From Salinibacterium sp. (GTDB taxonomy: Bacteria > Actinomycetota > Actinomycetes > Actinomycetales > Microbacteriaceae), in NCBI GenBank assembly GCA_019638845.1, contig JAHBSZ010000002.1, forward strand, positions 248,001 to 312,000: DNA of 64,000 bases, written 5' to 3'. The first letter of the stretch is position 1; the number at the start of each line of letters is the position of its first letter. This document shows, in pieces, positions 17,199 through 27,018 of the stretch. The notes below the pieces were generated by a model. The model had not been told where the DNA came from, ran no database searches, and worked only from the letters and a program-made list of their open reading frames with translations. The position numbers and the translations under genes are program-made.

Positions 17199-17233
17199 GT
17201 GCACCCCCCGGGACTTGAACCCGGAACCCACTG
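17199..17233. repeat. Left attachment site (displaced tRNA 3' half)
   Basis: Identical over 35 bases to 26984-27018. It covers the tRNA-Lys acceptor 3' strand, T arm and variable loop into the anticodon stem, then diverges at once. It cannot fold as a tRNA because the 5' half is missing. Confidence 0.9.
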
Positions 17234-17347
17234 GTAGCGCGGACGACATTCCGCTGGATACCGTAGGTGTCCGTTGAGGCCCATTTTACTGAGATTTCAG
17301 GGGAAACAGGGCGAAGTTTGTGACCTCGGATACCACTCAGTTCCACT

Positions 17348-17371
17348 GAAAACGGTGGGTAAACGTGGGGT
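17348..17371 (+). repeat. 24-base end repeat, left copy
   Basis: Matches 26892-26915 at 22 of 24 positions, same orientation (begins GAAAACGGTG, ends CGTGGGGT). It lies 115 bases inside the left att core. It may be an arm-type integrase-binding site. Confidence 0.6.
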
Positions 17372-17527
17372 GGTGGGTGAAATACCCCTTGGTCAATTTG
17401 GGGAGAGATTCGACGGCGGCTGGACCGGCGAGCAGGCTAATTGCCGTCTTGTGAAATCGGGTCATGTTAGCGAAGGCAACTCGCGACAAGGGGTGAGGGG
17501 CACCACCTGAGACTTTTGGCATATCGG

Positions 17528-17661
17528 ACCGTCACAACCGTCACAACCGTCACAACCGTCCCGAATAGCAGGCATCGTCGGCGTGAGTGTTGGCCTCCGC
17601 GGGGATGCCAACCGTCACCCGCGATCGTCACACCCAGCGCTTTGTGAGGGTCGTGAGGGTC
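17528..17661 (+). repeat. Iteron-like 9-base repeats
   Basis: ACCGTCACA occurs three times in direct tandem at 17528-17536, 17537-17545 and 17546-17554, with a partial fourth to 17560. Related copies lie at 17610-17618 (ACCGTCACC) and 17624-17632 (ATCGTCACA). The 9-mer GTGAGGGTC is then tandemly doubled at 17644-17661. Short tandem direct repeats in the gene-free end of a mobile element with an ATPase gene resemble replication iterons or regulator sites. Confidence 0.6.
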
Positions 17662-17672
17662 GAGTCGCGGTT

Positions 17673-18596
17673 CTACTCCGCGCCCGAATTTGCCGCTTTG
17701 AGCGCGAACCAGTGATCGACGTTCTTGTGAGCTGCCGCGATTGAATGCTCGGCCTCGACCGCCACTTCGATGGGAACTAGCTGGAGGTTCATGCCGAGCA
17801 GCGCGCGAGGCACGGCAGCATCTGGGTCATAGCCCACATTGAATACAGCGGGATACTTCCCCTCCACCGCGGCCTCGCTGTGAAGGGCGGCGATGCGGGC
17901 GGCGGCTGCACGGATTTGTGACTCCTGGTTGACAACGGCGAAGCTGTAGCAGAGCTCGACCACCGAGTAAGCGTGGGCAATGACGGTGAGGACGACGACG
18001 TCGTCAGCATCTCCCCATAGGGCTGCGGCCGCGCGCCACGGCTTCTCCTCCGAGTGGGCCGCAAACAGGGAGGGAAGATCGAAGATCCATCGCCGCTCGA
18101 CGGCATCATCCACGAGGCGCTCGGACAGCCGAGAGTGCGCCAACGGGTCTCGCCCATGCTCTCCTTCGTTCCGAAGTTCCCACGCGAGGCGGAAGTGGCG
18201 CTCTTTCTTGTAGAAGCCCTCGAAAGTCGCGCGCAGCGCCGGGGCCTCGTCGGGTAGGCGCTCGTCAAGCAGCGCGGAAAGACGCTGGCGAGTGGCGACA
18301 AGCTCGCTCAGAAAGTTCTTCATATTCCGCGCCCGGGACGACCTGATTTCGCGAGTCTCCCCGGCGCGATCGCCACTCACCATGTAGTTGGCATCGGCTA
18401 TCACCTTCTGAAAGGCTTCCGCCAACTCGAGCACGGATCCAGAGACGGAGACGCGACTGAGAAGATCGACGTCGTTTCGATAGCTCTCGTACTCAGACCC
18501 GCTCAGCTCGCGACCCATATCGATGTGCATGGACGAGCCGTCCGACTTCTTTGGCGTGTAGGTACCTAAGTGCCAGCCGGTGGTTGCATGTGCCAT
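17673..18596 (-). CDS. Unknown element protein with a HEPN-like Rx4H motif
   Basis: 307 residues from the ATG at 18596; an in-frame TTG at 18674 would add 26 residues. I do not recognise the family. The middle is helical and contains AWELRNEGEHGRDPL, with Arg142, Asn143 and His147 in the R-N-x3-H arrangement seen at the active site of HEPN ribonucleases. The C-terminal third has hydrophobic helices without clear membrane segments. The gene lies near the left att site behind its own 229-base upstream gap, apart from the main operon, as accessory or defence genes often do. A HEPN nuclease or toxin role is possible but unproved; no antitoxin partner is adjacent. Confidence 0.7.
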   Translation of the reverse strand: MAHATTGWHLGTYTPKKSDGSSMHIDMGRELSGSEYESYRNDVDLLSRVSVSGSVLELAEAFQKVIADANYMVSGDRAGETREIRSSRARNMKNFLSELVATRQRLSALLDERLPDEAPALRATFEGFYKKERHFRLAWELRNEGEHGRDPLAHSRLSERLVDDAVERRWIFDLPSLFAAHSEEKPWRAAAALWGDADDVVVLTVIAHAYSVVELCYSFAVVNQESQIRAAAARIAALHSEAAVEGKYPAVFNVGYDPDAAVPRALLGMNLQLVPIEVAVEAEHSIAAAHKNVDHWFALKAANSGAE

Positions 18597-25034: not shown

Positions 25035-25718
25035 GTGAGCGCAACGGTTGAGAGTGTCCAGACTTTGGCGCAAGTAATTGGTGAGAAGTTTCACGAACTG
25101 CGTCTGCAGCACGGTTTCACCCTCGACGACTTTGCCAGCGTGATGCGCGGCTACGGATATCGCTGGACGACGTCGCGAATATTCGAATTCGAAGCTGGCA
25201 AGATTCCGCCGAACCTAGGCCTTATCGCCGCGGTAAGTTCAGCTCTCGACGCCCTGGGGGTGAGAGGCATCAGCGTTCTCTCGCTGATTCCCGGAGACCA
25301 AATCCCGGTCGAGATCGCGCCGGGGGTAATTGTGGAACGATCCGCACTTCGACAAGTAGTCACCCATGGAGGAATGCTCGCGACGGCCGGGGATCTAGAA
25401 CTAAAGCGAAACAGCTTGCGGCGGCATTTCGACGGCGACGGTGCCGAGTGGCTTCGCGGCGGGTCATGGAGCACGGACGCTCAGTACGACGCAGTTTTTA
25501 CATATGACTTGTCGGACGCGCGCGCCGCTCGAGCTCTGAAACTCACAGTCAATGAGTTCTCCACAGTCGCCGTCTCCCTTTGGGGCCATCGACTAGTAAT
25601 CGAGCGGGATCGCCGCGCGGCGACCGGAGCGAATGCGCAGGCCCTCGGCCGCGTTACTCGAGAGCTTCTCGTCGAAGCGCGTGAATACGTTGCGGAACGG
25701 CGGAAGCACCGTGCCTAG
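25035..25718 (+). CDS. XRE-family repressor-like regulator
   Basis: 227 residues from the GTG at 25035, chosen from the promoter position; a GTG at 24999 is the alternative. Residues 15-75 form a Cro/CI-type helix-turn-helix (GEKFHELRLQHGFTLDDFASVM, then TTSRIFEFEAGK). The rest has no recognised domain; a catalytic protease dyad of LexA type is not evident. It is divergent from the Xis-like gene and overlaps the integrase start by eight bases, so repressor and integrase are co-transcribed. It probably keeps the leftward operon silent. Confidence 0.85.
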   Translation: MSATVESVQTLAQVIGEKFHELRLQHGFTLDDFASVMRGYGYRWTTSRIFEFEAGKIPPNLGLIAAVSSALDALGVRGISVLSLIPGDQIPVEIAPGVIVERSALRQVVTHGGMLATAGDLELKRNSLRRHFDGDGAEWLRGGSWSTDAQYDAVFTYDLSDARAARALKLTVNEFSTVAVSLWGHRLVIERDRRAATGANAQALGRVTRELLVEAREYVAERRKHRA

Positions 25719-26919
25719 ACCGCCGCTCGCAGTCGGCTCGTGGGGCAAGATCTCGCGCACACAGGTCGAGCCAAAGAAATGGCGAGCCCGGGCGCGATTC
25801 CGTGATTTCACCGGTAAGACCTCGCAGGTCGAGGCGTGGGGGGTTTCCGGCGCCGCGGCGCAGCGCTCCCTCGAGGCCGCTCTGCGAGTGCGCATCGCCA
25901 GCGGCGGCGAGGACGTAACTCCCGATATGCGGCTGGCAAAGCTGGGCAAACTCTGGCTGGCCGAGATCGAACTGTCGAACCTGTCGCCGCAGACCGTCGA
26001 GCGTTATCGAACGATCTTCGAGCGCACCATCGTTCCCGGGCTCGGCGGGATCATGGTCCGCGAAGCGAGCGTGTCGACCATCGACCGATTCTTGAAAGCG
26101 ACGGCCGCACGCACACCTGCCATCGCGCGATCCGCGAAGGTGGTCCTGTCGGGCATGCTCGGCATGGCGACGAGGCACGACGCCCTACGCACGAACCCAG
26201 TGCGCGAGGTTGCGTCGACTCGATCCGCGCCGAAGGAGGTTCGTGCCTTGTCCGTCGACGACGTCGCAGCGCTTCGTCGCGGGGTCCGACTCTGGCTCGA
26301 GGACCCCGCGCAGATCGGTCAGCGACGCTCGGCAGATATTCCCGACGTCGTCGACCTACTGCTGGCGACGGGTGCGCGAATCGGTGAACTGTGCGCCTTG
26401 CGCTGGTCGGACGTCGACCTCTCCACTGAGAGGCCGACCGTGACCATTGCGGGGACGATCGTGCGGCTGCAGGGTAAGGGAGTTGCACGCCAACCGCACC
26501 CCAAGAGCGCCGCGGGCTTTCGGACGGTGACGCTCCCGCGGTTCGCCGTCGAGACACTTTTGCGTCGCCAAGTAAACGCCACACCTAACCCCTTGGATCT
26601 TGTGTTCCCTTCCCAGAAGGGCAGTATTCGCGAACCCGGCAACTTGCGCCGGCAGTGGCGGGACGCTCGAGCGGCGGCCGGATTTGATTGGGTCGTGCCG
26701 CATACGTTCCGCAAAACTGTCGCGACATTGATCGACCAGGAGCGCAGTACTGCCAATGCCGCCTCGCAGCTCGGTCATTCTTCGCAGGGGCTCACCGCTT
26801 CGCGATACGTGCAGAAAGCGGCCATCGCACCCGACGTTTCCGACGTCCTCGAGGCATTCGCGTCGCGCGATCCGAGTGAATCAAAGGGATCGAAAACGGT
26901 GAGTAAGCGTGGGGTTTAG
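25711..26919 (+). CDS. int: Phage-type tyrosine integrase
   Basis: 402 residues from the GTG at 25711, which has GCGGAAG upstream and overlaps the repressor stop. An N-terminal arm-binding region (about 10-60, with RARARFRDFTGKTSQVEAWG) is followed by a single SAM-like core-binding domain (70-165) and the catalytic domain. Active residues are Arg223 (TGARIGE), Lys265, His331 and Arg334 (HTFRKT), His356 (LGHSS) and Tyr366. It ends 65 bases before the right att core in tRNA-Lys, the usual place for an integrase that uses the tRNA 3' end. The last codons contain one copy of the 24-base end repeat. Confidence 0.93.
   Translation: MPRPPLAVGSWGKISRTQVEPKKWRARARFRDFTGKTSQVEAWGVSGAAAQRSLEAALRVRIASGGEDVTPDMRLAKLGKLWLAEIELSNLSPQTVERYRTIFERTIVPGLGGIMVREASVSTIDRFLKATAARTPAIARSAKVVLSGMLGMATRHDALRTNPVREVASTRSAPKEVRALSVDDVAALRRGVRLWLEDPAQIGQRRSADIPDVVDLLLATGARIGELCALRWSDVDLSTERPTVTIAGTIVRLQGKGVARQPHPKSAAGFRTVTLPRFAVETLLRRQVNATPNPLDLVFPSQKGSIREPGNLRRQWRDARAAAGFDWVVPHTFRKTVATLIDQERSTANAASQLGHSSQGLTASRYVQKAAIAPDVSDVLEAFASRDPSESKGSKTVSKRGV
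26892..26915 (+). repeat. 24-base end repeat, right copy
   Basis: Matches 17348-17371 at 22 of 24 bases in the same orientation. It lies in the last codons of the integrase, 68 bases from the right att core. Two same-orientation copies on either side of the core in the circular form would suit integrase arm sites. Confidence 0.6.
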
Positions 26920-26939
26920 TCTCCACTGCTCCAAATGAG

Positions 26940-26981
26940 AAGGGCTCCTGACCGCATAAATGCTGGTCAGGAGCCCTTTTT
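26940..26981 (+). terminator. Strong terminator behind the integrase
   Basis: A 14-base-pair perfect stem (26940-26953 with 26965-26978), an 11-base loop and a run of T residues to 26981. It ends the integrase transcript. Read leftwards it may also end the tRNA-Lys transcript, whose original terminator is now 9.8 kb away. Confidence 0.85.
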
Positions 26982-26983
26982 CT

Positions 26984-27018
26984 GTGCACCCCCCGGGACT
27001 TGAACCCGGAACCCACTG
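26984..27018. repeat. Right attachment site inside tRNA-Lys
   Basis: 35 bases identical to 17199-17233, lying within the 3' half of the intact tRNA-Lys gene from the acceptor end to the anticodon stem. The element supplies this half and so restores the tRNA. Confidence 0.9.

Follow-up and report, generated by a model that had tools for sequence, protein, structure and literature searches.

A probable phage satellite with a tape-measure gene and a backbone resembling actinomycete integrative and conjugative elements in tRNA-Lys of Salinibacterium sp.

What kind of mobile element combines an integrase, a replication-type ATPase, a second recombinase and a tape-measure gene, with no recognisable gene for a virion head? 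This question is raised by a 9,820-bp element at positions 17199-27018 of a 64,000-nucleotide stretch of DNA from Salinibacterium sp. (GenBank assembly GCA_019638845.1, contig JAHBSZ010000002.1, positions 248,001 to 312,000 of the forward strand), which is called the window in the following. An initial annotation of the window had proposed that the element is a phage satellite or a small element type not yet described. The satellite is the reading that our comparisons support best: the element is probably an integrative satellite of mini-siphophages on a backbone like that of actinomycete integrative and conjugative elements (AICEs). Two lines of evidence carry this reading, namely the homology of its tape-measure protein (TMP) to TMPs of mini-siphophages and a sequence shared with the start of their terminase genes. 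The features on which the argument turns are the following.

19098-20117, minus strand: p03, TMP of 339 aa, assigned by a profile-profile match to Arthrobacter phage TMPs
18781-18832, minus strand: terminase-start stretch of ~53 nt, putative packaging signal; best of 2128 window tiles, and specific as a pattern
22545-24158, minus strand: p07, replication-type ATPase with a C-terminal CxxC...HPxC motif, assigned by identity to plasmid and AICE ATPases
21116-22543, minus strand: p06 (YR2), second tyrosine recombinase (Pfam; Xer-type in NCBIfam); the start may be 22555
17528-17638, no strand: 9-bp repeats, putative replication origin; CCGTCACAA in tandem and as single copies, with the core AACCGTCAC recurring at the equivalent end of the relative L018
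17199-17233, no strand: attL, exact 35-nt copy of the 3' end of tRNA-Lys (repeat search)
26984-27018, no strand: attR, within the intact tRNA-Lys(ctt) gene at 26984-27057 (minus strand)

p03 had been called tape-measure-like. For the window protein alone this name has a weak basis (phrog_305 of PHROGs, E 0.0039), and it gained support through the orthologue in L018, an element of the same gene order in genome G342. The L018 protein matches 16 phage records, several of them duplicated, and 15 of these are Arthrobacter phages of 15-16.3 kb in which the match lies within the annotated tape measure; the best match has an E value of 5e-11, with 34% identity over 167 aa in the pairwise alignment. 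A profile of the window and L018 proteins was aligned by hhalign with the TMPs of three Arthrobacter phages at a probability of 98.8 and E 5.1e-17, and a control with p04, another element protein, gave a probability of 0.1 and E 0.65. In our family search set of 398 Microbacteriaceae genomes the two-protein profile was positive in 20. Beyond the window and L018, seven of the 18 TMP-positive genomes were examined (G419, G191, G337, G032, G402, G432, and G179), and all seven loci are mini-prophages with minor tail genes; matches to terminase, portal, and capsid are present in six of them, the exception being G337, which is cut by a contig end. Their TMPs measure 340, 364, 381, 381, 396, 489, and 524 aa, so that the 339 aa of p03 represent full length for this family. 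The window TMP matches that of the G419 prophage at E 1.3e-7, and the 96-residue end of the TMP preserved in L017, a third element of this kind, is 52% identical to the C-terminus of the same prophage protein over 79 aa (E 2e-22).

The mini-prophages are 15.3-16.5 kb long in the five cases where the ends were located. G419 and G432 occupy tRNA-Lys(ctt), G191 and G402 tRNA-Arg(acg), and G032 lies at a 27-nt repeat outside a tRNA gene; compared with the attachment site (att) core of the window, that of G419 differs at one of 35 bases and that of G432 at four. When the 12 element proteins were compared with the seven mini-prophage loci by tblastn (E 1e-3), matches were obtained only for the TMP, YR2, and, in G032, the excisionase (Xis)-like protein, and none for the ATPase, p04, p05, the repressor-like protein, or the integrase. 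Within the host assembly the TMP profile found p03 and no other TMP of this type, so a helper, itself hypothetical, would come from outside. The portal family PF04860 is also absent from the host genome; this family detects only three of five mini-prophage portals (two above cut-off) and could thus overlook a resident mini-prophage, which makes the TMP profile the better test.

The second line of evidence is the terminase-start stretch. Positions 15698-15748 of L018, which follow the tape-measure gene, matched the beginning of the G432 terminase region over 51 nt at 78% identity (BLASTN, E 2e-4, among other matches). A pattern derived from L018 and G432 with up to three mismatches was found in three of 12 genomes (G342, G432, and, newly, G179) and its reversed control in none of the 12; in G179 it sits at the terminase start of a mini-prophage that had been selected for its tape measure alone. 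This ungapped pattern missed the window copy because the spacing there differs. In a gapped local alignment scored with four copies from outside the window (L018, G432, G179, and G402), the tile containing 18781-18832 was the top one of 2128 window tiles, with a sum of 150.5 against 103 for the next unrelated tile. A gapped pattern has one match in the window and none in 100 shuffles. It was present in two of 239 family genomes (the window and the mini-prophage of G179; G342, G402, and G432 were not part of this draw), with no match for the reversed control, and in 12 of 119 loci scanned, every one of which belongs to these elements and prophages. Thirteen contigs of IMG/VR, 5.4-16.6 kb in length, matched as well. 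All 13 show matches to the large terminase (TerL), portal, major capsid protein, and HNH, 11 also to the TMP, and in every one the stretch lies at most 80 nt from the start of the TerL match. Since the gapped pattern was built to include the window copy, its match in the window carries no independent weight. Such weight comes from the 13 viral contigs and from the tile test with outside copies; a second tile test used pattern-derived motifs.

Our first choice for the role of this stretch is a packaging signal, and our second choice is a terminase N-terminal peptide or its relic. In favour of a DNA-level role, the terminase frame is broken by a stop in two of the IMG/VR contigs, L121 and L126. 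The reading frames close soon after the stretch in L018 (FEKSPVPPPGDSKDFSLY-stop) and in the window (FETGVTTPAVGSRQFLSEHE-stop). Lacking a full virion gene set and sharing a packaging-region sequence with a possible helper type, the element would fall among the tailed-phage satellites as a new variant, with packaging as the putative function of the shared sequence.

The replication module points to AICEs. The operon ATPase of the initial annotation is indeed present, and its kin are replication-type ATPases: p07 is 36-37% identical to the ATPase encoded beside the primase-polymerase (prim-pol) in Streptomyces plasmids, e.g., pFP11, and 39-45% identical to that of the AICE-like loci L104-L107. 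It occurs in eight of the 398 Microbacteriaceae genomes and, at E<=1e-20, in 10 of 396 Micrococcales genomes, the window's own being counted in both. Five further Micrococcales ATPase regions were examined; an FtsK-type protein is encoded in four (L104-L107), and no FtsK-type match was found in the fifth, L108. Three of the four (L104, L105, and L107) also have an integrase and a nearby tRNA gene, the L107 integrase being 39% identical to the element's integrase p12, and the Xis-like protein has kin in AICE-like loci too. AICEs are defined by an integrase, a Rep protein of RepSA, RepAM, or prim-pol type, and FtsK (PMC3218068). The element has an integrase and an ATPase of the prim-pol-adjacent kind; no prim-pol was recognised. 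Pfam found no FtsK/SpoIIIE translocase among the 12 element proteins, and this places the element outside the AICEs so defined. In the viral contig collection, the ATPase as a single-protein query found no match, and an alignment query found one remote locus (L028). Against PDB sequences the ATPase family gave six matches at E 0.005-0.07, all to ABC-transporter chains over ~30-40 residues each. AlphaFold models were poor for the ATPase (mean predicted local distance difference test score 46) and for p04 (51).

A second recombinase had likewise been named, and p06 scores above the Pfam cut-off for Phage_integrase. The residues R, K, H, R, H, and Y, which by their motifs we take to be the active site, are invariant in all six aligned proteins. 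Recombinases 38-47% identical to YR2 occur in six of the seven mini-prophage loci (that of G179 was missed by the gene finder and detected by tblastn), and G032, the remaining locus, carries an integrase of conventional type. The YR2-like gene adjoins one att copy in four mini-prophages; in these four, BLAST against the reference set used recognised no further integrase. In a tree the YR2s, whether from elements or from prophages, are separated as a group from the tRNA integrases (96/91), and those of the window, L017, and L018 stand together (85/94); elements and prophages do not form two separate clades. The proteins are 374-480 aa long in the window, L017, L018, and the relative L019, compared with 273-294 aa in mini-prophages examined; together with doubled SAM matches in Pfam, this greater length suggests that SAM-like domains were added. 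No SAM repeat was seen by self-BLAST at E 0.01, so that the suggestion is based on Pfam and length. We infer a role of YR2 in multimer resolution.

A putative replication origin lies at the attL-proximal noncoding end. The unit CAACCGTCAC occurs three times in the 64 kb (expected 0.22), each time in this end and partly as a 9-bp tandem, and the core AACCGTCAC has three copies in the corresponding end of L018 and two elsewhere in that 19.5-kb locus; it was found in no other of 34 loci compared. We infer an iteron origin at this end. Arrays of its own are also present in L019, an 8-kb relative in tRNA-Gly, where the 9-bp unit TGCAGGCGT forms three clusters of ~3 copies just after the ATPase gene (10186-10357).

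The initial annotation had proposed to look for the same gene order in other Microbacteriaceae, and two further genomes have it. L018 is a complete 9.5-kb element in tRNA-Ser (att 31 nt, 94%) with an integrase, a regulator from a different family, Xis-like genes, small genes, the ATPase, YR2, the CxxC protein, and the TMP; it keeps the window's order, plus extra small genes, at identities of 52% (ATPase), 50% (YR2), 33% (CxxC protein), and 24% (TMP). L017 (G394) shows the order of the window beside tRNA-Arg, with two additional genes, until the contig breaks off within the gene for the TMP. Common to all three is thus the succession of ATPase, second recombinase, CxxC protein, and TMP. A full element of which this one could be the decayed remnant was sought and not found among the relatives examined; judged by sequence, the element does not stand alone and is no prophage in decay. 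The closest relative is L025, a 4.5-kb contig that stops after the ATPase (integrase 71%, ATPase 62%); its record, JABBNZ010000176.1, is labelled as a proteobacterial metagenome-assembled genome (MAG) though it carries the nearest relative of an actinobacterial element, and is probably mis-binned. L027, from a Cellulomonas MAG, encodes the integrase, the repressor-like protein, the Xis-like protein, the ATPase, and YR2.

Other ATPase-bearing loci have different neighbours. L020 and L033 (G433) form a 17.1-kb tRNA-Leu element with a 21-nt att (L033 15712 and L020 14792) and the same ATPase type; of its genes scanned, one alone was firmly recognised as a virion gene, that for an 889-aa tape measure (Pfam TMP_3, 2.3e-23), making this a second, unrelated element with a tape measure. 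In L022 (8853-10160, G383) an integrase, a helix-turn-helix protein, and a prim-pol/ATPase fusion precede a major capsid protein (phrog_10, 1e-47), and neither portal nor terminase is evident among the few genes called before the contig end; some Staphylococcus aureus pathogenicity islands reportedly carry capsid-protein homologues, a parallel to this gene. L024 (G092), a 14.9-kb contig, has an FtsK-type protein, the ATPase in two frames, and YR2; it is an AICE-like element with the second recombinase of the satellite.

With regard to boundaries and layout, the proposed att repeats and tRNA target were confirmed by an exact 35-nt direct repeat, spaced 9,785 nt (repeat search), and by ARAGORN, which placed tRNA-Lys(ctt) on the minus strand; as the second copy falls within this gene, the repeat corresponds to the 3' end of the tRNA. 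The single coupled leftward operon also holds, with nine minus-strand open reading frames (ORFs), the first for the HTH_17 protein (24946) and the last for the 91-aa protein (18826), in the order p10 to p02, and followed by the lone p01; p11 and p12 are read rightward. Neighbouring operon ORFs share 4 or 8 nt, apart from a 1-nt gap ahead of the second recombinase. Several of the operon ORF starts were chosen by us; the gene finder omitted the 68-aa ORF and started the ATPase at 24218. The remaining features are listed here.

25633-26919, plus strand: p12, tyrosine integrase (Pfam Phage_integrase 4.2e-17; 71% identical to the L025 integrase); longest ORF, its true start being uncertain because it overlaps the repressor-like gene
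24999-25718, plus strand: p11, putative repressor, divergent from the operon; weak helix-turn-helix matches; 40% and 35% identical to the same-place proteins of L025 and L027
24722-24946, minus strand: p10, HTH_17 protein of 74 aa, excisionase/activator-like (Pfam HTH_17 4e-8; same-place BLAST kin in L025 and L027)
24354-24725, minus strand: p09, 123 aa, no assigned function (ORF; Pfam and PHROGs scans)
24151-24357, minus strand: p08, 68-aa ORF, no assigned function (Pfam and PHROGs scans)
20790-21119, minus strand: p05, 109 aa, kin in L017
20110-20793, minus strand: p04, two-CxxC protein (alignment with two relatives)
18826-19101, minus strand: p02, Cys-containing protein of 91 aa; no Pfam match, PHROGs matches only at E>=0.17
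17673-18665, minus strand: p01, lone gene of 330 aa, no assigned function (ORF and gene finder)

Among the 12 proteins, only the two recombinases and the 74-aa HTH_17 protein exceeded a Pfam cut-off. The integrase thus stands as annotated; of the proposed repressor and Xis-like switch, the Xis-like half is backed by the HTH_17 match, and p11 shows a weak HTH_3 match (E 0.0039) under the cut-off. The statement that relaxase, terminase, portal, and capsid genes are missing also held: Pfam gave no match to these families in any of the 12 proteins, and PHROGs none that convinces in 10 (all but the Xis-like protein and the integrase), the best virion-type match being a head-tail adaptor for p05 (E 0.041). 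Without terminase, portal, or capsid among its proteins, the element does not qualify as a prophage. As to the annotated zinc proteins, the paired Cys motifs of p04 (CPVC...SCxxC) do not vary between the window protein and two relatives, and zinc binding itself is putative. p04 was found in three of the 398 genomes, which are the three elements of this kind and also the members of its profile, and had no match in the phages collection; it occupies what we take to be the position where a tail assembly chaperone gene often lies, and PHROGs gave no convincing chaperone match for p02, p04, or p05. p02 directly precedes the terminase-start stretch, a slot held by an HNH gene in many mini-siphophages. 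p01 had no PADLOC or NCBIfam match and no Pfam match above cut-off; the position past the operon end is a usual slot for accessory or defence genes. Partial tRNA copies ~4 to 30 kb from tRNA-Lys(ctt) in G017, G019, and G024 mark other islands of the genus in this same tRNA gene, whose cargo, judged by translations, comprises sugar transport genes, arsenic/metal genes, and a DNA-modification gene. The genes on the left flank of the element have only weak, partial matches within the genus.

In order to weigh the satellite reading, the observations that speak against it have to be considered together. The window TMP itself had no match at E 0.01 in the phages collection and its similarity to those phage TMPs that were tried is low (E 3e-4 in a single pairwise alignment). 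The satellite proteins form one clade in only 34% of bootstraps for the TMP and 12% for YR2. Neither a small terminase nor a tail assembly chaperone was recognised in the element, and its 9.8 kb are only ~0.6 of a 16-kb genome, which leaves head filling unexplained. Concerning the terminase-start stretch, an ungapped matrix scan did not lift the window copy over chance: it scored 6.0, second in the window, and shuffled sequence had a best of 9.2 and a mean of 5.0. It is present in three of the six terminase-bearing mini-prophages (G432, G179, and G402) and absent from G419, G191, and G032, and of 12 other TMP-bearing genomes in the 239-genome draw one matched; the TMP nearest to that of the window and to the L017 fragment comes from G419, one of the prophages without the stretch. 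In 11 of the 13 IMG/VR contigs it reads as a terminase N-terminus (FExxxVPPxxGSxEFSL-like) and may therefore be a relic or peptide and not a DNA signal. When the stretch was compared with five Arthrobacter phage genomes, their ends as deposited did not stand out (tile ranks 81/755, 25/51, 8/51, 32/53, and 23/47). In the phages collection, the L018 and G432 forms gave no match or only matches at E~4, and the left noncoding end of the window one match at E 5.

If the element is a satellite, mini-siphophage infection or induction would relieve repression, Xis and integrase would excise the element, the ATPase would replicate it from the repeat-bearing end, and YR2 would resolve multimers or assist recombination. 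A helper terminase would recognise 18781-18832 and package the element into helper heads, and the element's TMP would enter tail assembly, or compete in it, so that satellite particles would be favoured over those of the helper. It might instead be that the TMP is a decoy that poisons tail assembly of the helper or a competitor, as an anti-phage defence, and does not enter particles. Tail assembly is a known target, since Tab acts on the tape measure and Tai and Rta block tail assembly (PMC10884400, PMC11364771, and PMC12987554), and a 339-aa TMP could compete with a longer one of the helper. However, TMPs of 340-396 aa in five of the seven mini-prophages give no sign that p03 is truncated, and p03 is coupled into the Xis/ATPase operon instead of lying in a separate accessory slot. 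We therefore regard the decoy as unlikely.

The kinship of the ATPase and the Xis-like protein with the FtsK-carrying loci L104-L107, the related integrase of L107, and the gene content of L024 would also suit an AICE descendant that lost FtsK, is immobile or conjugatively mobilised by another element, and carries the phage-like genes as passengers. Against passengers, the order of ATPase, YR2, p04, and TMP is kept with open frames in two diverged elements whose TMPs are 24% identical, both of which retain the terminase-start stretch after the TMP, and a third shows this order as far as its contig reaches; this explanation appears quite improbable. A decayed mini-prophage would account for the TMP, YR2, and the stretch, all with mini-prophage counterparts, as well as for the att core that two such prophages use. 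It is very improbable given the few proteins matched by tblastn in the mini-prophage loci and an arrangement that recurs near other tRNA genes with open frames. Under the satellite reading, we tentatively suggest that an AICE lineage lost FtsK and turned to the smallest siphophages as a satellite, acquiring from them only a tape measure (with chimeric tails), a terminase recognition sequence, and perhaps the second recombinase; we regard this scenario as possible but less likely than not. As the ATPase backbone joined lone virion genes at least two more times (the tape measure of L020 and the capsid of L022), such an exchange of conjugation for particles would have recurred.

Among known systems, the phage-inducible chromosomal island-like elements (PLEs) of Vibrio cholerae are alike in being integrated satellite-like islands with their own tape measure, which is known here from sequence and for the PLE proteins by description, and no capsid gene was recognised in our element, for which PLE capsid use is a parallel. 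Differences are that no tail assembly chaperone or baseplate hub was recognised here, that the replication ATPase is of AICE type, that the host belongs to another phylum, and that the presumed helper would be a ~16-kb siphophage and not ICP1. Phage-inducible chromosomal islands (PICIs) have an integrase with a divergent regulator, an Xis-like gene, a replication gene, and a phage-related end, and the element is laid out alike. From PICIs and capsid-forming PICIs (cf-PICIs) it differs by its different replication protein, by having no recognised terminase/capsid set, and by an att core shared with temperate mini-prophages (PMC6092414, PMC10690885, and PMC12987554); a site unused by temperate prophages belongs to the PICI wording in PMC6092414, and here the G419 and G432 prophages use tRNA-Lys. 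PLE tape measures are incorporated into chimeric tails according to a Nature 2026 article (PMC12987554), which also mentions putative tmp genes in other putative satellites, including some cf-PICIs. Our data support that the element, too, carries its own tape measure, and by analogy with the PLEs it probably supplies it. Tape-measure satellites as such are hence no longer an undescribed type; the part of the earlier suggestion that stands is the combination of an AICE-like backbone with a lone tape measure, of which no report was found in the main texts of the open-licence journal literature.

AICEs of the prim-pol replication type (PMC3218068) share with the element the tRNA site, the tyrosine integrase, the Xis-like protein, and the prim-pol-adjacent ATPase type, whereas a tape measure and the terminase-start stretch stand here in place of a recognised FtsK/SpoIIIE or prim-pol. 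The Streptomyces satellites MulchRoom and MiniFlayer, a satellite group described for Actinobacteria in PMC10690885, are satellites of siphophages as well; as stated there, they encode encapsidation genes and are without key replication genes, the reverse of the element, and MiniFlayer does not appear to integrate. With the 15-16.5-kb mini-siphophages (Arthrobacter phages Berka, Idaho, and Whytu and the Microbacteriaceae mini-prophages) the element has in common the tape-measure family and, as regards the mini-prophages, also a recombinase of YR2 type, the terminase-start stretch of some of them, and the tRNA-Lys att core of two; it differs in having no terminase, portal, or capsid gene and in that most of its 12 proteins are without a prophage counterpart. 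Many small actinobacterial prophage-like elements may be satellites or PICIs according to a prophage survey (PMC10023795). The present element offers a definite case open to testing: a possible helper type and a candidate packaging sequence can be named for it, and one structural gene alone was recognised. If the satellite reading is right, satellite tape measures extend beyond Vibrio PLEs and cf-PICIs, the 16-kb phages can themselves be parasitised, and one backbone can swap conjugative for phage-borne transfer.

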